27,601 nucleotides of DNA from a virus. Shown piece after piece: positions 12,092 to 21,662 of the stretch. The first letter of the stretch is position 1. Each line of letters starts with the position of its first letter. The stretch lies in the IMG/VR virus record IMGVR_UViG_3300032294_000234, positions 1 through 27,601 of that record; one strand, 5' to 3'. Under the pieces are notes generated by a model. The model was not told where the DNA came from. It searched no databases and was given only the letters and a program-made list of their open reading frames with translations. Made by a program: the position numbers and the translations under genes.

Positions 12092-12370
12092 TTATCGTGC
12101 GGTTACTTTTAAGGTAATCACTGCGGTGGTTTTGGTGTGCTTGGCAATCAAGTCTGCTGGAATGTTTGCCTCGGCAAATACCGCCTTGTTATCCACTACG
12201 TTGCGTTGTGAGAGCGTTACGCAGGCTTTGTAAAGGTTGCCCTCTATCTTACCCTCAGTTTGCTTGAGTTCGGCTTTTATGGCCTCTGCTTGTGCCTCTA
12301 AATCGGCGATTTGAGCCAACAACATACCGAGTTGGTCTACTTTGGTTATTGCTAGGTCTAATACTTGCAT
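12092..12370 (-). CDS. Early coiled-coil protein of unknown function
   Basis: A 92-residue protein, first gene of the distal leftward operon. Residues 15-45 are a heptad-like helix (AQIADLEAQAEAIKAELKQT), followed by EGNLYKACVTLSQRN and a beta-like end ITLKVTAR. Small early proteins with this pattern, a helix and then EGNLYKA, are common in phages of Proteobacteria, without a known job. An AAAGGA ribosome site lies nine bases before the ATG, on a leader with a hairpin at its predicted 5' end. It is under the operator-controlled promoter described at 12371-12464. Confidence 0.72.
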   Translation of the reverse strand: MQVLDLAITKVDQLGMLLAQIADLEAQAEAIKAELKQTEGKIEGNLYKACVTLSQRNVVDNKAVFAEANIPADLIAKHTKTTAVITLKVTAR

Positions 12371-12464
12371 TTTGGTGTCCTTTCTATCTCACTCCCCAAT
12401 GGAGTAAGGACAGATTAAGACTTCTTAACACCCAAGTCAAGCAATACTTATAGGGATAAACCCT
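12371..12464 (-). promoter_or_regulatory. Early leftward promoter module 1 (operator, promoter, hairpin leader)
   Basis: On the minus strand: an AGGGTTTATCCCT inverted repeat (12464-12452), CTATAAGTATTGCTTG, a -35 TTGACT (12440-12435), 17 bases, and a -10 TAATCT (12417-12412). A perfect TTAAG-N4-CTTAA operator lies at 12415-12428. Transcription should start near 12405, exactly where a 5-bp hairpin begins (12405-12391, loop ATTGG). The leader is 35 nt and ends with an AAAGGA ribosome site. Parts and spacing match the modules at 15236 and 15973. Confidence 0.8.
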
Positions 12465-12616
12465 AGGGGTGGGGTCAAGATTTGGCTTTTTATTGCAAAT
12501 GGGCGGGAAAGCCACAAAACCGCGCAATTTCGGCATCCTCTTGAGGTGGCTTAACAACCCCAAAGTCTGCCTACTTGGTCGTGAAGAGCGCTTTTGGCGC
12601 CACCTTTCGGCATTGC
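12465..12616. other. Gene-free spacer between the two leftward operons
   Basis: No convincing gene or strong intrinsic terminator is seen between the end of the exonuclease gene and the promoter of the distal leftward operon. Short open frames on the minus strand (20 and about 48 codons, starting MPKGG and MPKLR) lack properly spaced ribosome sites, and the second one would run through the promoter. A CCTCAAGAGG palindrome and AT-rich tracts are present. Confidence 0.5.
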
Positions 12617-13384
12617 CTATATGTTATTACGAATCCGGTAAAACTTAAGCAGGCACGAGAAACATTCCCACCCCTTTTGGAGGTCTTCTTCCGATACACC
12701 CACGACTTTAACCTCGTTGGTGGTGCCATTCACAAAGCAAATAGCCGCATTCGCCTTGGGGATTGCTAGACCCTGCCGGTATGCCGCCAATTGCATGATA
12801 TGCTCAAAGTACACCTCGGCTTTGTCGAGAGGGGCATCTTTTGTCTTGAAATCCACGACTGCCCCATCCCATTTCTGATGATAGTCCGCGCGGCTCATCA
12901 AATCGCACTTGCCACCAAACCCATTCGGATGCGCAAAAGACTTCTCTGAGAGCCACAAACGGTTGCCAAAATGGGTGTTTACAGCCTCCTCCACAATCTT
13001 GACGTATGGCGGCAATTCCGGAATATACACACCCTCATAAAACGACTGAATGATTGCGTGTATGGTTTCGCCACGCTCGGCGGCCTTGCGTCCGGTTTCC
13101 TTGGAGTCCTGCATGACCCGCGAAAGCCACTCCTGTTCCGGTTCACCGTCAAGCCTTGGTAAGGTTAGCGCGGCTAGGAGGACTTGTTGCTGTTTCCATG
13201 TATCAAGGCCTGCTTTTGATAGCAATCCGATAATTGTTGTAACACTTGGCAAAAGTCCAAGTTTCCGCGCGTCGCGAAGCGTTGTTGCACGCTCGTTCCC
13301 GTTAGCCCCAACCGTTGTATAGGCTGGACTGCCATCTTTTGAATACCAGTGTCCACTTTCTGCCACCTTTTCTTTAACAATCAT
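12617..13384 (-). CDS. PD-(D/E)XK exonuclease, RecB/Cas4-like
   Basis: A 255-residue nuclease. The RecB-like motif series is present in order: RGETIH (His109), GGKCDLM (Asp161), VVDFKTK (Asp178, Lys180) and QLAAYRQ (Gln198, Tyr202). These make the metal site used by phage recombination exonucleases that resect double-stranded ends. The length fits a stand-alone exonuclease rather than a helicase fusion. The ATG at 13384 has an AAGGAAA ribosome site. It is the last gene of the proximal leftward operon, with an SSB-type protein two genes upstream, an arrangement that suggests single-strand annealing or replication repair. A separate annealing protein is not recognised, though one of the unknown genes here could serve. 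Confidence 0.85.
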   Translation of the reverse strand: MIVKEKVAESGHWYSKDGSPAYTTVGANGNERATTLRDARKLGLLPSVTTIIGLLSKAGLDTWKQQQVLLAALTLPRLDGEPEQEWLSRVMQDSKETGRKAAERGETIHAIIQSFYEGVYIPELPPYVKIVEEAVNTHFGNRLWLSEKSFAHPNGFGGKCDLMSRADYHQKWDGAVVDFKTKDAPLDKAEVYFEHIMQLAAYRQGLAIPKANAAICFVNGTTNEVKVVGVSEEDLQKGWECFSCLLKFYRIRNNI

Positions 13385-13386
13385 TA

Positions 13387-14022
13387 TTATTTCCTTAGTT
13401 CTTCAAAGTTGTAAAACCATTCGTCTTTAGCGCTCCATTTAGCATGATTCTCAACGCTATACACTTGGGTTGGTATCTTAAAGTCAGGTGTTTTAAGAAC
13501 AGCAGGTACTAACGACACATCGTACCAAAGGCAACGGTTATTAGGCTGGCAGGCAAATTGCCCATTGTCCAGCTTAATAAAGTTGTAACTTTTATGCTCT
13601 TCCACTCCCTCACTAAAGCTAGTGTCAATGCGGTTAGTATCAGGCGATGCAAAGTCAATGGTGAACAAATAGTTACCAAAATGAAACTGCTTATCTTTGC
13701 CAAAAAACTTAACCTTTAGCCCACGCAAGTTAGACTTTTCAATAACCGCCATGTCGTATGACAAACAATCCCATATTTGCAAGTAATCTAAAGGCAACGG
13801 TTCTGTCACCTCTTTCCATACATACGCATTTATAGGCAGTTTGTCGTACAACGCACCGTAGTTGGTTAGCATGGACTCAATGCGGAACGCTTGCCCCTTG
13901 ATGGCTTTGGCGGTCATCCAAACGCAAGGTTCTAATTCACCATGTCCTTGCTCGTGGTTGTAAAGAAACTCTTTACGCACAAAACACTTAACCGGTGGTA
14001 TGTTAACGACTAAAAATGTCAT
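13387..14022 (-). CDS. Unknown early protein between SSB and exonuclease
   Basis: A 211-residue protein of no family I recognise. It is rich in aromatic residues and strands (KVKFFGKDKQFHFGNYLFTI, CLWYDVSLVPAVLKTP) and has no membrane segment. The ATG comes three bases after the stop of the SSB gene and has no clear Shine-Dalgarno, so it is probably translated by reinitiation and made in proportion to SSB. It ends two bases before the exonuclease start. Its place in the recombination operon makes an accessory or annealing role worth considering, but the sequence gives no direct support for this. Confidence 0.68.
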   Translation of the reverse strand: MTFLVVNIPPVKCFVRKEFLYNHEQGHGELEPCVWMTAKAIKGQAFRIESMLTNYGALYDKLPINAYVWKEVTEPLPLDYLQIWDCLSYDMAVIEKSNLRGLKVKFFGKDKQFHFGNYLFTIDFASPDTNRIDTSFSEGVEEHKSYNFIKLDNGQFACQPNNRCLWYDVSLVPAVLKTPDFKIPTQVYSVENHAKWSAKDEWFYNFEELRK

Positions 14023-14025
14023 GGC

Positions 14026-14637
14026 TTAAAATGGGATTTCGTCGTCAGGCATTGGGTTGGCCGCATATTCTTCCTCGCGCTTCTGCTTGCCGCGCCACTC
14101 AGAGGATTCTGTAATCTTTTCTTTGTAATACTTTGGCAGGGCATCGTACTTGGCTTGGTCAAACTCTTGTAACCAAAAGTGCGTGACCGCGTTCACACCC
14201 TCCGGCAGGCTGTTGCGCAGGGCTGTTGGTACCGCGCTAATGGTTGAAACGTTGGCATATTTACCATCCTCGGAGTGGACGACCGATAACATACAGAACT
14301 TACCGAGCAAGTTCTTCATGTCAAAGTTCTTTCTGTCCTCGGCTGTCATCTTCTTGCCTGACCAGCTTTCTAGGTCTTTGCGCAGGGTGGACTGGTCGCC
14401 AAGGCTTACGGTGTAACGCTTACTAACGATTAATGGCTTGCCGTCGTCTGTTTTTAACTTTTCGCCGTTTTCGTCCTCACCATGCAATTCCCAAGTCAAT
14501 ACGACCTTGTGCATGATTTTGGTATCGCCATTCCAAACAACGGATTGGTGGCCAAGGTCAATGCAGGAGTAAAGCCTTGCAAGATGGTTACCTGCGGGCG
14601 CGATTTTAAATTCTTTGGTTGTATCTGAAATAATCAT
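14026..14637 (-). CDS. Phage single-stranded DNA-binding protein (DUF669-like)
   Basis: A 203-residue protein that resembles phage ssDNA-binding proteins of the DUF669 type. The N-terminal 140 residues are beta-rich with KEFKIAPAGNHLARLYSCID and VVLTWELHGED, compatible with an OB fold; the C-terminal 60 residues are a charged linker ending NPMPDDEIPF. This end mimics the acidic DDDIPF tip of bacterial SSB that recruits recombination and replication proteins. The ATG at 14637 is chosen because GAGGA lies just upstream; an earlier in-frame TTG has no site. It follows the 127-residue gene by eight bases. It would protect single strands made by the exonuclease. Confidence 0.78.
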   Translation of the reverse strand: MIISDTTKEFKIAPAGNHLARLYSCIDLGHQSVVWNGDTKIMHKVVLTWELHGEDENGEKLKTDDGKPLIVSKRYTVSLGDQSTLRKDLESWSGKKMTAEDRKNFDMKNLLGKFCMLSVVHSEDGKYANVSTISAVPTALRNSLPEGVNAVTHFWLQEFDQAKYDALPKYYKEKITESSEWRGKQKREEEYAANPMPDDEIPF

Positions 14638-14645
14638 GGCTGTCC

Positions 14646-15029
14646 TCAAAATGGTTCAAATTCTGCTTGTTTGCTATACCGGTGAACGATGATGCTGTTG
14701 TTTTCGCGGTCAATCGTGGTGGAATAACTGCCTTTGCCCCAATTGGTCGACATATAAGCACACAGCGAACTGCGTAACGTTTCCATGTCAAACTCATCGA
14801 TTGGCACCTCGCCCACCGTATCGTCGGTCATATCTTTAATAAACGGTAAGTAATGGTTGCGCAAGGTTCCCATCGGGTAATGCAGTGGCCCACGCTTTTT
14901 GCGCTTGTTAAACAGGACTTCTAGGCTGCCATGTTTGTTTCCATCGCTGTCCACGATGGCATACATCAGGTTGCAGGATTTGAGCATACTGATGGCTCGT
15001 TGCAGGGTAATCTTTTCTACGTTATTCAT
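14646..15029 (-). CDS. Unknown early protein of the recombination operon
   Basis: A 127-residue soluble protein with no recognised domain. It starts with a helix (VEKITLQRAISMLKSCNLMY), continues with a strand pair and a basic KRKKRGPLHY stretch, and ends STTIDRENNSIIVHRYSKQ. The ATG overlaps the stop of the preceding 69-residue gene (ATGA). The basic patch could contact nucleic acid; that is inference only. It is the second gene after the operator-controlled promoter and so is among the first made. Confidence 0.66.
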   Translation of the reverse strand: MNNVEKITLQRAISMLKSCNLMYAIVDSDGNKHGSLEVLFNKRKKRGPLHYPMGTLRNHYLPFIKDMTDDTVGEVPIDEFDMETLRSSLCAYMSTNWGKGSYSTTIDRENNSIIVHRYSKQAEFEPF

Positions 15030-15235
15030 TTGAGACCTCCGTAAGGGTTTAGGTCAGCAAACACTTCACGCAGGAAGTTGCGTTGACGGTCAATGGGCGC
15101 GAACCCACAGCCATAACGCAGAAGGTCAATTTGCTCTTTGGATAAGTCTGTGCCGCCCTCCAGCACATCGAAGATGCGTTCAAGTTCACCTTGAAGCTGT
15201 AGTAAATCATTGGTTTGCGATTCTATTTCACTCAT
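15026..15235 (-). CDS. Small helical early protein, first gene of leftward operon
   Basis: A 69-residue protein. ATG 15235 is chosen because GAAAGGAA lies seven bases upstream, and the predicted transcript starts at 15271; a longer in-frame version would start inside the leader hairpin. The N-terminus is a coiled-coil-like helix (ESQTNDLLQLQGELERIFDV); the rest, DLSKEQIDLLRYGCGFAP, is helical and charged. No family recognised. It is the promoter-proximal gene of the recombination operon and is coupled by ATGA to the next. Confidence 0.66.
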   Translation of the reverse strand: MSEIESQTNDLLQLQGELERIFDVLEGGTDLSKEQIDLLRYGCGFAPIDRQRNFLREVFADLNPYGGLK

Positions 15236-15319
15236 ACGAGTTCCTTTCAAATATTCACCGGCCAATCCGGTAACACCATGTTAAACTATCTTAATTCCAA
15301 AAGCAAACTTTATTTATAG
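15236..15319 (-). promoter_or_regulatory. Early leftward promoter module 2 (operator, promoter, hairpin leader)
   Basis: On the minus strand: CTATAAATAAAG (from 15319), -35 TTGCTT (15306-15301), 17 bases, -10 TAACAT (15283-15278). An operator TTAAG-N4-TTTAA, one mismatch from the palindrome, lies at 15281-15294. The predicted start at 15271 is the first base of a 5-bp hairpin (15271-15257), with the same ATTGG loop as module 1 but a different stem. The leader is 36 nt and ends with GAAAGGAA before ATG 15235. Confidence 0.78.
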
Positions 15320-15321
15320 TA

Positions 15322-15357
15322 TTGTGTTGATAGGTATTCCCTGTTAAGATACCCTAA
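15322..15357 (+). promoter_or_regulatory. Repressor-gene promoter with operator over the start codon
   Basis: A -35 TTGTGT (15322-15327), 17 bases, and a -10 TAAGAT (15345-15350) place the start of transcription at about 15357, the A of the regulator ATG, so the transcript would be leaderless. There is no Shine-Dalgarno. An operator-like TTAAG-N4-CCTAA (15344-15357) covers the -10 and the start codon, one mismatch from the consensus. Its centre is 63 bp, about six helical turns, from the operator of the divergent leftward promoter. Confidence 0.65.
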
Positions 15358-15587
15358 TGAATCCAACAGCCATTATTAACATCTTGGGCGGTGCAACCAA
15401 GGTCGCCAAACTCTGCGGAGTTTCGGTGCCTGCGGTCTCTATGTGGCAAAAAAGCGACATTCCGCGCGATAAATTGATATTTTTAGCCGCAACGCTAGAA
15501 CGCGAAACCAATGGGTTAATTACCCGCAAAACCCTGTTTCCCACGACTTATGGGGTAATTTGGCCGGAGTTGCAAACTAAGCAGTAA
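15357..15587 (+). CDS. YdaS/Cro-like helix-turn-helix repressor
   Basis: A 76-residue DNA-binding protein. A helix-turn-helix spans about residues 13-31 (ATKVAKLCGVSVPAVSMW), followed by SDIPRDKLIFLAATLERE and the C-terminal TRKTLFPTTYGVIWPEL typical of the YdaS family of Cro-like phage regulators. No catalytic or cleavage domain is present, so it is not a LexA-type, SOS-cleaved repressor. It is divergent from the leftward recombination operon. The gene appears leaderless, and an operator overlaps its start, so it probably represses itself together with the early promoters. A candidate RNA promoter overlaps its 3' end. Confidence 0.82.
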   Translation: MNPTAIINILGGATKVAKLCGVSVPAVSMWQKSDIPRDKLIFLAATLERETNGLITRKTLFPTTYGVIWPELQTKQ

Positions 15588-15599
15588 TTTGGTTATACT
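15570..15599 (+). promoter_or_regulatory. Promoter for candidate structured RNA
   Basis: -35 TTGCAA (15570-15575), 18 bases, -10 TATACT (15594-15599), overlapping the end of the repressor gene. Predicted start near 15606. It lacks the CTATAARTA element and the TTAAG operator found at the early promoters, so it would be expressed independently of the repressor. Confidence 0.6.
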
Positions 15600-15605
15600 G
15601 TGCTG

Positions 15606-15727
15606 GCAGATTAGAACCTGCTTTGATTTACCAGCCAAGACCCTTTAGGGTTGCTTTGAGCGTTTTGGAAAGGCTGGCTGGTCTTTTCTAAAACGGTTCT
15701 AACTTAGAGCAACCTTAAGGGGTTTTT
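15606..15727 (+). ncRNA. Candidate structured RNA with competing folds
   Basis: About 120 nt with no gene. Fold A: helix 15611-15618 with 15695-15702 (TTAGAACC/GGTTCTAA, perfect), nested helix 15630-15636 with 15676-15682 (ACCAGCC/GGCTGGT, perfect), inner hairpin 15640-15643 with 15648-15651, and a weak terminator (15711-15715 with 15720-15724) followed by TTTTT. Fold B: a 12-bp helix 15647-15658 with 15705-15716 (three G-U pairs) that would form a pseudoknot with the two outer helices and destroy the inner hairpin and the terminator. The two states look like a termination switch or a compact regulatory RNA. It matches no family I know; reality of the transcript is inferred from the promoter and pairing. 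Confidence 0.5.
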
Positions 15728-15972
15728 CTATTTCTGCGGTCACAGTTGGACGGGAACCGACGCCAGCGACTGCGATACAAGTGCTACTGGGGGATAGTTG
15801 TTGCAACAGCACATAAACCGGTGGCGAAGATAGTGCCGGTACAACGAAAGACTGTCGGGTTCTGTTGGCTCCATGAGGCAGATTAAGGCGAACCTAGGAA
15901 GGCTGGGTTCGTTTCACCAAAAGGCAGAAGTTAATTATTACTAACATAATTATATAAAATACTGCAAAATCA
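15728..15972 (+). other. Gene-free stretch, GC-rich with pairing potential, then AT-rich
   Basis: No open reading frame of credible length or ribosome site is seen. From 15733 to 15915 the composition is more GC-rich than its surroundings and several helices can form: 15754-15761 with 15854-15862 (one bulge), 15781-15785 with 15808-15812, 15817-15821 with 15836-15840, and a 9-bp hairpin 15889-15897 with 15903-15911 followed by only three T. It could be the continuation of the upstream RNA if the weak terminator is read through, or a separate RNA or replication site. From about 15928 to 15965 it is strongly AT-rich (TTAATTATTACTAACATAAT). Confidence 0.4.
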
Positions 15973-16066
15973 AGGGTTTAACCCTATAAATAATGCTTGC
16001 ATATTTAAGAAACCTTAACATATACTGTCATTACTGCATGAGCAGTGAATATATGAAAGGTTCCAC
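15973..16066 (+). promoter_or_regulatory. Early rightward promoter module 3 (operator, promoter, hairpin leader)
   Basis: AGGGTTTAACCCT (15973-15985, perfect palindrome), CTATAAATAATGCTTG, -35 TTGCAT (15997-16002), 18 bases, -10 TATACT (16021-16026). A perfect TTAAG-N4-CTTAA operator lies at 16005-16018, between the boxes. The predicted start at 16033 is the first base of the hairpin ACTGC-ATGA-GCAGT (16033-16046). The 34-nt leader ends with GAAAGG six bases before the GTG at 16067. All elements match the two leftward modules. Confidence 0.82.
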
Positions 16067-16357
16067 GTGAAACATATTGAGTTCTTTTGCATTAGCTTTT
16101 TTATAACCATGTGCGTTGGTATTCAAACCACCAAAGCCCAAACCTACGTTATTACCAACCCCCAAGGCTTTCAGACCGGCACCGTTCAAATACAGGGCAA
16201 CCAAGCGCAAGTCGTGAACAACGCTGGGGTTACGGTGCAAAACCTGACCATTTACCCCAACCAAGTTGTTACACCGCAGGGATATGCGGTTGGTGTGCCA
16301 AGCTACAGAGTGCCGCCAAGCCCACCATCACCTACTAGCCCACGTGTGTTGCAATGA
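16067..16357 (+). CDS. Secreted early protein of unknown function
   Basis: A 96-residue protein with an N-terminal signal peptide: MKH, a hydrophobic core FFCISFFITMCVGI and a likely cleavage after TTKAQ or TKA. The mature part is Q/N/V-rich with short beta repeats (NPQGFQTGTVQIQGNQAQVV) and ends in a proline-rich SPPSPTSP tail. The GTG start is set by an AAAGG ribosome site and the 34-nt leader. It is the first gene of the rightward operon and therefore made early. Periplasmic or outer-membrane location is expected; a role in excluding other phages is a possibility but unproven. No lipobox is evident. Confidence 0.72.
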   Translation: MKHIEFFCISFFITMCVGIQTTKAQTYVITNPQGFQTGTVQIQGNQAQVVNNAGVTVQNLTIYPNQVVTPQGYAVGVPSYRVPPSPPSPTSPRVLQ

Positions 16358-16512
16358 CCTACCTTATTTATGATGAGTTTGGCGACCTGATTCGCAAGAG
16401 CAGTTCACGTCAAGAGGCTCGGTATTTGCTTAAGATTTACCAAGGCTGGACGATGAAAGCCATTAAAAGCAAGCCGGTAGACTTATCACACTTAGGGGAG
16501 GCACCATTTTGA
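16354..16512 (+). CDS. Small conserved phage protein, 52 residues
   Basis: A 52-residue protein beginning MTYLIYDEFGDLIRKSSS and continuing QEARYLLKIYQGWTMKAIK. The YLIYDEFGDL-R-K start followed by a GWT block is seen in many short phage proteins of unknown function. Its ATG overlaps the stop of the secreted protein gene (ATGA), and its last bases overlap the TTG of the next gene. It is soluble, with an alpha/beta feel. Function unknown. Confidence 0.65.
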   Translation: MTYLIYDEFGDLIRKSSSRQEARYLLKIYQGWTMKAIKSKPVDLSHLGEAPF

Positions 16513-16607
16513 TTGAGACTGTAATGATTGTGTTCGCAATTGCTACCTTTGTGGTTTTTGCGTTGTTTATGATTGTTGCCGCATTTCTTTACTACTGGAT
16601 GGACTAA
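16509..16607 (+). CDS. 32-residue single-pass membrane protein
   Basis: A tiny gene that begins with TTG at 16509, overlapping the previous stop (TTGA), with GGGGAGG eight bases upstream. The product is almost entirely one hydrophobic helix (VMIVFAIATFVVFALFMIV) ending in LYYWMD. The stop overlaps the ATG of the replication-associated gene (TAATG). The strong ribosome site and double coupling argue that it is translated. An inner-membrane location is predicted; function unknown. Confidence 0.55.
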   Translation: MIETVMIVFAIATFVVFALFMIVAAFLYYWMD

Positions 16608-16984
16608 TGACCTTTGAAGCCTTTTACTTAATGTACCCGCGCAAGATTGGCAAGCGTGCGGCAGAAAAGTCGTGGAACCGGTTGACTAAGGATGAACAGC
16701 AGGAGGCTTTGGCCGCTTTGCCTAATCATCTTGCATATTGGAAGTTTAAGCAGACCGAAAAAGATTACATTTGCCATGCATCCACGTGGCTCAATCAGGG
16801 CAGGTGGGAAGACGAGCTAGAGTTTGAACGCGCTAAAAAGCCGGAGTTGCCTTGGTATAGCACCAACGAACTAACGCTTAAAAAAGCCGCCGAGGTTGGT
16901 GTTAGACCGTATGCTGGTGAGGATTGGCCACAGCTGCGCGCCCGCATTAGTGAACAAATGAAACGGTTGGAAGAGCAGATGTGA
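16607..16984 (+). CDS. Replication-associated protein (helicase-loader-type C-terminal domain)
   Basis: A 125-residue protein whose body matches the C-terminal region of many phage replication proteins: FEAFYLMYPRKIGKRAAEKSW near the start, then the ICHASTWLNQGRWEDE block at about residues 55-70. In those larger proteins this region follows a winged-helix DNA-binding domain and helps load the replicative helicase. Here it stands alone, without the usual N-terminal domain and without a helicase gene nearby, so it may use the host helicase. The last 25 residues are a charged helix. The start overlaps the previous stop. Exact biochemical role is inferred. Confidence 0.65.
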   Translation: MTFEAFYLMYPRKIGKRAAEKSWNRLTKDEQQEALAALPNHLAYWKFKQTEKDYICHASTWLNQGRWEDELEFERAKKPELPWYSTNELTLKKAAEVGVRPYAGEDWPQLRARISEQMKRLEEQM

Positions 16985-18237: not shown

Positions 18238-18596
18238 TATTGTCACTCCCACTGCCGCCATCTGTGAATCATTACTGGGGGAGCGCAGGAAACCGCCGGT
18301 TCGTAAGCAAAGCGGGAAAAGAGTTCAAGCTGAAAGTGCAGGAATATGTGCTGGAATACCGAGTCCCGAAATTGGGAACCGCCCGCCTGCAAATGACGGT
18401 GACATTGCACCCCCGCGACAAGCGTAAGCAGGACATCGACAACCGAATCAAGGCTTTGTGGGATGCGTTAGCTGATGCCGGTGTTTTTGACGATGACGAG
18501 CAGATTGATGTTTTAATCGTTGAACGCGGTCAAATTAAAAAGGGTGGCGCCTGCCGCGTAATCATTGAGGTTTTAGATGCTTATCAAAAATCTTAA
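18231..18596 (+). CDS. rusA: RusA-type Holliday junction resolvase
   Basis: A 121-residue endonuclease of the RusA family, which resolves four-way junctions by paired cuts. The N-terminal LPLPPSVNHYWG, the acidic core KRKQDIDNRIKALWDAL (Asp68, Asp70) and the later acidic DDDEQIDVL (about Asp87 to Asp93) are the family marks. It is full length. The start is GTG at 18231, overlapping the preceding stop, with the second codon TTG as an alternative. It would process branched intermediates made by the recombination-based replication suggested by the exonuclease and SSB genes, so that concatemers can be packaged by the terminase. Confidence 0.9.
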   Translation: MLILSLPLPPSVNHYWGSAGNRRFVSKAGKEFKLKVQEYVLEYRVPKLGTARLQMTVTLHPRDKRKQDIDNRIKALWDALADAGVFDDDEQIDVLIVERGQIKKGGACRVIIEVLDAYQKS

Positions 18597-19257
18597 GGTT
18601 ACTGAATACACCGAGGACTATTACAACGAGCATAAAGAGGCTGGGCTGGATTACCTTGGTCATGGGTATTGGCAAGAAGAATACGCAAAAATGGTCACAG
18701 AAGCCTGCAAACCGCCCGCAGACGGCTTTGTTGTGGACGCTGGGTGTGCGTGTGGCTCAATCCTGAAAGGCTTCCAAAAGCTCAATTTGCGCGTTTTGGG
18801 GGCTGATTTAAACCAACATATGATTGATATTGGGCGCGAACACTTTGGCTTTTATGCCAACGAACTAGTCTTTGGCTCAATATCTAATTTGCCGGCGCTC
18901 ACTGAAAGCGTTGATTTAGTCCACACCGCCCAAGTTTTAGAGCATATTCCGCAAGAACACATGGACGACATTTTGCGTGAGTTTGCCCGCGTTTTAAAGC
19001 CAACCGGTCGTGCGTTTATCTGTTTGGATGCGGTGAAAGACGGTGAAACCAAGGAAATGTACATGGGCGACCCAACCCACGTAAATATCCAACCTATACA
19101 GTACTGGTACAGGCTGTTTCAAAAACATGGTTTTATGTTTAATGTTGAGGCATACAACCGGTTCGTGCGGTCAAAATACAAACCAACAGAAGAGCAAAAA
19201 AACAATTTTTTTGACGAATATCCGTATTGGAGTGTATGGATTTTGCAAAAAACCTAA
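18577..19257 (+). CDS. Class I SAM-dependent methyltransferase
   Basis: A 226-residue enzyme with a Methyltransf_11-type fold. The SAM loop is VVDAGCACGSILKG (Asp54 to Gly60), the acidic residue binding the ribose is in LGADLNQ (Asp77), and the motif ending SVDLVHTAQVLEHIP and FARVLKPTGRAFICLDA follow in order. There is no DPPY/NPPY motif, so it is not an adenine or cytosine DNA enzyme; the substrate (small molecule, sugar or protein) is not evident. It overlaps rusA by 20 bases, with GAGG upstream of the ATG, and ends the early rightward operon. Confidence 0.82.
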   Translation: MLIKNLKVTEYTEDYYNEHKEAGLDYLGHGYWQEEYAKMVTEACKPPADGFVVDAGCACGSILKGFQKLNLRVLGADLNQHMIDIGREHFGFYANELVFGSISNLPALTESVDLVHTAQVLEHIPQEHMDDILREFARVLKPTGRAFICLDAVKDGETKEMYMGDPTHVNIQPIQYWYRLFQKHGFMFNVEAYNRFVRSKYKPTEEQKNNFFDEYPYWSVWILQKT

Positions 19258-20287: not shown

Positions 20288-20436
20288 TGGAACACATGAA
20301 CCGCAAATTCAAAAAAGGCGACAGTTTACTAAGGCCACATCAAGAAACTACGCTCGAAAAGAATCAAAAAGCCCGCGAAAAGCGCAAGGCTATGTTGATG
20401 AAACACTTTAATAAGTTTGCGAAGGATATAGCTTAA
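20287..20436 (+). CDS. Small basic protein, 49 residues
   Basis: Starts at ATG 20287, overlapping the preceding stop (TAATG). The product, MEHMNRKFKKGDSLLRPHQE, continues with a strongly basic helix (EKNQKAREKRKAMLMKHFNK). It is the last of four small basic genes and is followed by a promoter. Coupling and composition support it; it is not recognised. Confidence 0.58.
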   Translation: MEHMNRKFKKGDSLLRPHQETTLEKNQKAREKRKAMLMKHFNKFAKDIA

Positions 20437-20477
20437 CTGTACAATTTAAGCATCATTAACTAATCACTTGGTTAACC
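20417..20477 (+). promoter_or_regulatory. Promoter upstream of the methyltransferase and packaging genes
   Basis: -35 TTGCGA (20417-20422), 17 bases, -10 TACAAT (20440-20445). An operator-like TTAAG-N4-ATTAA (20446-20459), one mismatch from the early operator, lies on the predicted start (about 20452). A GGTTAACC palindrome abuts the ATG at 20478 and no Shine-Dalgarno is evident, so translation of the next gene may be weak or regulated. It is a candidate late-operon promoter. Confidence 0.55.
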
Positions 20478-21662
20478 ATGCAAATACAAGAAGTCGCTGT
20501 AGAAGCGTTAATCCCTTACGCTAAGAACTCAAGAACCCACTCCGATGCACAAGTGGCGCAAATTGCCGCAAGCATTAAAGAGTTCGGGTGGACTAACCCA
20601 ATCCTGATTGACGGCACCAAAGGCATTATTGCCGGACATGGCAGGCTGATGGCCGCCCGCAAGCTGGGCTACAACAAGGTTCCGGTTATCCAGCTAAAGG
20701 ATATGACCGAAAGCCAAAAGAAGGCTTATGTCATTGCAGACAACCAGCTGGCTATGAACGCAGGCTGGGATATAGACTTATTAAAAATAGAGGTGGCCGA
20801 CTTGCAAGAGGACGGATTTGACCTTGAACTTCTAGGCTTTGATAACAAGATGCTGGACTCCTTGCTGGAGCCGGAGGTCAAAGACGGTTTAACGGACGAG
20901 GACGCTGTTCCTGAACTGCCAAAAGAACCCAAAACAAAGCTGGGCGACATCTATATCTTGGGTGAACACCGCCTGATGTGCGGGGATAGCACCAGCATTG
21001 ACGCTGTTGAGACCCTGACCGACGGTTTAGTGGATATATTGGTAACTGACCCACCGTACAACGTAGCGTACGAGGGTAAAACTAAAGAAGCCTTAACCAT
21101 TCAGAACGACTCTATGGGTGACGACGCTTTCCGTCAGTTCTTACGCGATGCATTTGTTGCGGCAGACGCAGTCATGAAACAGGGCGCGGTATTCTACATT
21201 TGGCACGCAGATTCCGAGGGATATAACTTTAGGGGCGCCTGTAAAGATGCCGGCTGGAAGGTGCGTCAATGCTTAATATGGGCAAAAGACAGTATGGTTA
21301 TGGGCAGGCAAGACTATCACTGGAAACACGAACCCTGCCTATATGGCTGGAAAGAGGGCGCCTCTCACCTTTGGGCGGCAGACCGTAAACAAACGACCAT
21401 CATTGAGTGCAAACGACCTAGGGTAAACGATATACACCCTACCATGAAGCCTGTGGAACTGATGGAATACCAAATCCTCAACAACACCAAAGGACAGGAC
21501 GTTGTGTTGGACTTATTTGGGGGTAGCGGCTCAACCCTTATTGCTTGCGAGAAAACCGGCAGGAAGGCCCGTTTAATGGAATTAGACCCCAAGTATTGCG
21601 ACGTCATCGTAAAGCGTTGGGAAGAATTCACAGGTAAGACTGCTGAACTTTCGGAGTTATAA
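20478..21662 (+). CDS. ParB-domain/DNA methyltransferase fusion
   Basis: A 394-residue fusion. Residues 1-90 are a ParB-type domain (IPYAKNSRTHSDAQVAQIAA, then AGHGRLMAARKLG); residues about 155-390 are a DNA amino-methyltransferase with the catalytic motif DPPY (191-194) before the SAM-binding motif LDLFGGSGST (344-353), the order of the beta class, probably N6-adenine. HPTMKPVELM joins the two. Such fusions are common in phages beside terminase. It abuts terS with no gap. It could mark genome DNA against host restriction or for packaging. No cognate restriction enzyme is seen. The recognition site cannot be predicted. Confidence 0.87.
   Translation: MQIQEVAVEALIPYAKNSRTHSDAQVAQIAASIKEFGWTNPILIDGTKGIIAGHGRLMAARKLGYNKVPVIQLKDMTESQKKAYVIADNQLAMNAGWDIDLLKIEVADLQEDGFDLELLGFDNKMLDSLLEPEVKDGLTDEDAVPELPKEPKTKLGDIYILGEHRLMCGDSTSIDAVETLTDGLVDILVTDPPYNVAYEGKTKEALTIQNDSMGDDAFRQFLRDAFVAADAVMKQGAVFYIWHADSEGYNFRGACKDAGWKVRQCLIWAKDSMVMGRQDYHWKHEPCLYGWKEGASHLWAADRKQTTIIECKRPRVNDIHPTMKPVELMEYQILNNTKGQDVVLDLFGGSGSTLIACEKTGRKARLMELDPKYCDVIVKRWEEFTGKTAELSEL

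Follow-up and report, generated by a model that had tools for sequence, protein, structure and literature searches.

The window, the whole stretch of 27,601 nucleotides analysed here, carries an early region in which a small gene for a P22-type Cro protein lies between a leftward and a rightward operon, with a further leftward gene beyond the first of these (Table 1). The leftward operon encodes proteins of 69 and 127 amino acids, an NGO0469-family replication initiation protein, a phrog_3704 protein and a PD-(D/E)XK nuclease; the 92-residue protein has no Pfam, PHROG or NCBIfam match. The core genes hold their places across the related loci. Each of these four transcription units has a single copy of a 14-bp palindrome, TTAAG-N4-CTTAA, in or against its promoter (sites O1 to O4), and the two outermost promoters have a second inverted repeat, TAGGG-N5-CCCTA, upstream. 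A consensus scan for promoters and terminators gave results no better than those from shuffled sequence.

Table 1. Positions of the regulatory sites, predicted leader hairpins and transcription units of the early region
Feature	Position	Strand	Sequence or content	Context or basis
O1	12415-12428	-	TTAAGAAGTCTTAA, perfect TTAAG-N4-CTTAA	Between -35 TTGACT (12440-12435) and overlapping -10 TAATCT (12417-12412)
O2	15281-15294	-	TTAAGATAGTTTAA, 1 mismatch	-35 TTGCTT (15306-15301), -10 TAACAT (15283-15278)
O3	15344-15357	+	TTAAGATACCCTAA, 1 mismatch	Over -10 TAAGAT (15345-15350) and cro start site
O4	16005-16018	+	TTAAGAAACCTTAA, perfect	In spacer between -35 TTGCAT (15997-16002) and -10 TATACT (16021-16026)
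Second inverted repeat	12451-12465	-	TAGGGTTTATCCCTA	10 bp upstream of O1 promoter -35
Second inverted repeat	15972-15986	+	AAGGGTTTAACCCTA	10 bp upstream of O4 promoter -35
Hairpin, predicted 5' end of O1 transcript	12391-12405	-	ACTCC-attgg-GGAGT	
Hairpin, predicted 5' end of O2 transcript	15257-15271	-	ACCGG-attgg-CCGGT	
Hairpin, predicted 5' end of O4 transcript	16033-16046	+	ACTGC-atga-GCAGT	
92-aa protein gene under O1	12092-12370 (12370-12092, promoter reads left)	-		31 relatives
Leftward early operon under O2	12617-15235	-		Domain/profile matches, synteny
cro	15357-15587	+	76-aa P22-type Cro/YdaS-like protein, inferred repressor	
Start of rightward early operon under O4	16067-16984	+	Includes replication-initiation-like protein (16607-16984)	

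The transcripts predicted from these promoters fall into two kinds. The ATG of cro lies only seven bases beyond the end of the -10 box, a spacing kept in most relatives, so the cro mRNA is predicted to be leaderless. At O1, O2 and O4, and not at the cro promoter, a hairpin follows about ten bases after the operator, and the stems of these hairpins differ in sequence yet keep their pairing. Stem-loops at 5' ends have a role in protecting mRNA or helping translation, and the leader hairpins of O1, O2 and O4 probably do one or the other.

The palindrome in the window and in its relatives

The first-pass annotation had described perfect copies of the palindrome at O1 and O4 and copies with one mismatch at O2 and O3, all overlapping or abutting a -10 box. 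A scan of the whole window bears this out, with exactly two perfect copies, the two mismatched ones (O2 reading TTAAACTATCTTAA, one mismatch to TTAAGN4CTTAA) and a sigma-70-like promoter at all four sites. Dinucleotide shuffles give an expectation of 0.02 perfect copies, and of 1.2 sites with zero or one mismatch against the 12 present. The claim that the copies are not accidental thus stands for the perfect pair, none of which falls outside a promoter, and is reinforced by the conservation described below; it does not stand for near-perfect matches taken by themselves, which discriminate poorly. One-mismatch matches alone are weak evidence because eight of the ten in the window fall away from these promoters: five in coding-looking sequence, one (1181) in a Shine-Dalgarno sequence, one (12541) between genes and one (20446) at a putative late promoter. 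Abundant equal matches away from promoters, which the first-pass annotation had named as grounds for rejecting the idea, are thus absent for perfect sites, although one-mismatch sites would supply them.

Relatives were collected by searching viral contigs with the 76-residue protein, which gave 41 loci, and by a profile scan, which found 502 relatives, of which the best 80 were kept. The 93 loci analysed include the window and some near-identical sequences, up to 92 of them are scorable at a given site, and most of the related records are fragments from metagenomes, of unknown completeness. About 90 viral loci with a gene for this small Cro show the four sites at corresponding positions. With at most one mismatch, O1 is present in 68 of 73 loci (perfect in 58), O2 in 92 of 92 (perfect in 61) and O4 in 77 of 85 (perfect in 74); O3 has one mismatch in 86 of 92 loci and is perfect in none. 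Across the 19-25 distinct sequences of each site, the arms hardly change and variation falls on the four central bases; O3 is the exception, as the -10 box constrains its left part. Among 44 loci used as a spacer control, TTAAG-Nk-CTTAA has 83 matches in 51 distinct contexts at k=4 and no more than two at any other k between 0 and 12; in 19 whole records the motif read backwards has a single match, compared with 40 perfect sites read forwards. The sites themselves are thereby established by sequence and conservation.

Cro as the candidate ligand

The 76-residue protein scores above the Pfam cut-off for P22_Cro (PF14549; 3.5e-9, 36.7 bits against a cut-off of 30.2) and also for YdaS_toxin (1.2e-7), and it matches PHROG repressor families. 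Profile comparison with P22 Cro gives a probability of 95.8 over 37 columns, the sequence similarity being restricted to the N-terminal helix-turn-helix region of about 37 residues. An AlphaFold model (pLDDT 90.5) consists of helices only, the all-helical Cro fold, and the best Foldseek matches in the PDB are Xfaso1 Cro, YdaS, N15 Cro and P22 Cro, with probabilities of about 1 but E values of only 0.02-0.2 and TM scores of about 0.5. Each related genome has one P22_Cro match.

The sites resemble the operators of P22. A consensus for the P22 operators was not found in the open literature searched, and their sequences were read directly from the P22 sequence record: the annotated OL contains an OL1 core, TTAAGACTTCTTAA, identical to O1 over 14 bases, and OR3 is TTAAGTCATCTTAA. 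The TTAAG-N4-CTTAA core has the 5-4-5 spacing of the P22 class, and the PL promoter of P22 shares with the O1 promoter a TTGAC -35 box, a 17-base spacer and a -10 box overlapping the operator. Because the protein is of the P22 type by profile and fold, with a Cro of the same Pfam family in P22, and because O1 matches OL1 within the same promoter geometry, the operator belongs to a kind already known. Its arrangement, to judge from the same comparison, is a variant: P22 has its operators in tandem groups of three at PL and at PR, and it has the c2 repressor and an integrase, whereas the window has four single sites, one per promoter, no c2 or integrase that could be found, an apparently leaderless cro, and the extra inverted repeat and leader hairpins.

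Other characterized systems offer further comparisons. YdaS of the Escherichia coli O157:H7 prophage CP-933P has the fold and family of the window's Cro and acts as a Cro on divergent promoters, against the CI analogue PaaR2, but the consensus of its operator repeat is GTTTAGTAA rather than TTAAG (PMC8630535). The CII-like gene ydaT, which lies downstream of ydaS in CP-933P and Rac, has no counterpart here, where cro is followed by noncoding sequence that includes an RF02932 RNA. The CI-Cro-CII region of Acinetobacter phage Ab1656-2 has a related Cro and 5-4-5 palindromes beside cro, but its half-sites are TTAGG, several sites lie between cI and cro, and the phage has CI, CII and an integrase. 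Acinetobacter phages whose recognition helix reads PPSVSGW or PSSVSGW, compared with VPAVSMW here, carry TTAGG-N4-CCTAA beside cro. A half-site that changes along with the recognition helix in these temperate outgroups is suggestive only, and the covariation rests on few lineages because most loci recovered from viruses with the Acinetobacter Cro as query are near-identical.

The sites might be operators whose main ligand is another protein, such as a regulator of the phage that no profile covers, a host repressor or the CI of a related prophage, and of which Cro occupies just a subset. Precedent exists, since in P22 the c2 prophage repressor binds these operators (annotation of BK000583) and the Cro of phiKO2, which like that of N15 has the all-helical fold of the window's Cro, recognizes a single operator among several, OR3 (PMC4997575); several early genes here, moreover, are without assigned function. 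Against this, no HTH_3 or S24 protein besides Cro was found in the related records searched: HTH_3 exceeds its cut-off only in the controls P22 and Ab1656-2, no second HTH_3 regulator does so in the window or the relatives searched, and the weak matches in relatives are Cro itself. The cro gene also adjoins two of the sites, and its product belongs to a family whose P22 member recognizes this very sequence. We consider a different main ligand unlikely. A shared operator with the Cro/YdaS-like protein as its ligand, as the first-pass annotation had proposed, remains the best reading, and family, fold, the match to P22 operators and the lack of another candidate make Cro most likely the protein that would bind.

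A quite improbable alternative is that the motif is mostly promoter or leader sequence kept for RNA polymerase, with the palindrome as a by-product. All four sites do overlap or touch promoter elements, and promoter function alone explains the left half of O3, which contains the -10 box; but O1 and O4 take up the spacer, a region in which sigma-70 requires no particular sequence, the arms are fixed around a variable centre, a single spacing is enriched, and in P22 this sequence represents an established class of operator. A chance resemblance within AT-rich intergenic DNA, for which the one-mismatch matches in coding DNA could be cited, has a negligible probability given the excess of perfect copies and is refuted by conservation: at the level of sequence, recurrence in the relatives and 5-4-5 as the sole enriched spacing settle the point.

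Proposed early regulation and a probable second input

The second inverted repeat accompanies O1 and O4 only, not O2 or O3, and the shorter pattern AGGGN5CCCT occurs in the window at these two places alone. All 25 occurrences of exact TAGGG-N5-CCCTA lie within 90 bases of an operator. Among 76 promoters with a good box, the gap from the end of the box to the -35 is 8-12 bases in 53 and 20-21 bases in 15, which corresponds to one or two turns of the helix and is the spacing expected of a protein in contact with RNA polymerase; in the relatives, the box is lacking at some O1 and O4 promoters. A second input probably acts at O1 and O4 through this repeat, and its phasing points to an additional early regulator. 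Together with the P22 operator match, the leader hairpins and the missing CI partner, the repeat goes beyond what the first-pass annotation had described.

Searches for lysogeny genes covered three families, PF00589 (integrase), PF00717 (S24 peptidase) and HTH_3. Neither integrase nor S24 peptidase was found in the window or in 23 further related records (15 related records, including two complete circular genomes, and eight longer contigs), and both searches detected the positive controls P22 and Ab1656-2. With no PF00717 match and no HTH_3 protein other than Cro, the records searched contain no CI-type repressor that would oppose Cro. Absence of lysogeny genes is likely, not proven, because the completeness of the records is unknown and some modules, such as those with serine integrases, would escape the three families.

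We assign a probability of about 80% to the reading in which the P22-type Cro uses the 14-bp sites as its operators, the sites together forming a Cro-only early shut-off circuit, of which repression, binding order and timing are what we infer. Upon infection the four sigma-70 promoters would fire, and cro would be translated from its apparently leaderless mRNA. Cro dimers on TTAAG-N4-CTTAA, in the spacer between -35 and -10 or over the -10 box, would then exclude RNA polymerase, occupying the perfect O1 and O4 first, then O2, and O3 at the promoter of cro itself last; the late filling of an always imperfect O3 would give delayed negative autoregulation of cro. Late transcription may be kept on from a promoter at about 20440, which precedes methylase and terminase genes and has only a doubtful operator match.

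The usual account of Cro makes it one half of a lysis-lysogeny switch. With a Cro regulon that is conserved in the absence of a CI partner, the role of Cro itself, in the timing and shut-off of early transcription, would become testable, and the natural variants of four sites with one small protein form a data set linking recognition helix to operator. For the broader proposal we see evenly balanced odds: a large group of freshwater phages, apparently obligately lytic, may run a Cro-only early programme built on four P22-class operators, one per promoter, with weak autoregulation of a leaderless cro and another regulator at TAGGG-N5-CCCTA, one or two helical turns upstream of two of the promoters, a Cro circuit with no lysogeny decision.

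Rejected sites and neighbouring features

Several further candidate sites were set aside. A parS-like sequence, GGTTCCACGTGAAACA (16059-16074), is a ribosome site plus a GTG start, which is TTG in one relative, and its distance from O4 varies. A fifth operator, TTAAGCATCATTAA at 20446, is doubtful; it is unlike the variable-centre operators because its centre, too, is conserved in distant relatives, inside a conserved leader segment that follows a -10 box. That segment (20430-20480, TTAAGCATCATTAACTAA..ACTTGGTTAA), ahead of a ParB-domain DNA methylase gene, is a putative late promoter and leader. The one-mismatch site at 12541-12554 (TTGAGGTGGCTTAA) is conserved in close relatives only and is possibly an accessory site or part of a terminator. 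A perfect site at 12199 in one relative (G002) has no promoter context and lies in coding-looking sequence.

Between cro and O4, a noncoding stretch is conserved (15590-15930), with a possible promoter of its own at 15570-15599, at the end of cro. It includes an RNA of family RF02932 (Betaproteobacteria-1) at 15739-15860 (101.6 bits), a family present in 6 of 14 relatives searched. Five other loci (L061, L068, L078, L082 and L105) have in this interval an RNA module on the 3' side that is unrelated to it and matches no Rfam family at E 0.01; its 22 distinct sequences yield 48 consensus pairs, of which 15 show changes on both sides (with no shuffle control). The 5' part of the stretch seemingly comes in two types, which mix with both 3' modules. 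A host genome scan returned unconvincing metagenome bins. Further along the window, two methyltransferases are encoded, a SAM-dependent methyltransferase (18577-19257) and a ParB-N/N6-N4 DNA methylase fusion (20478-21662).
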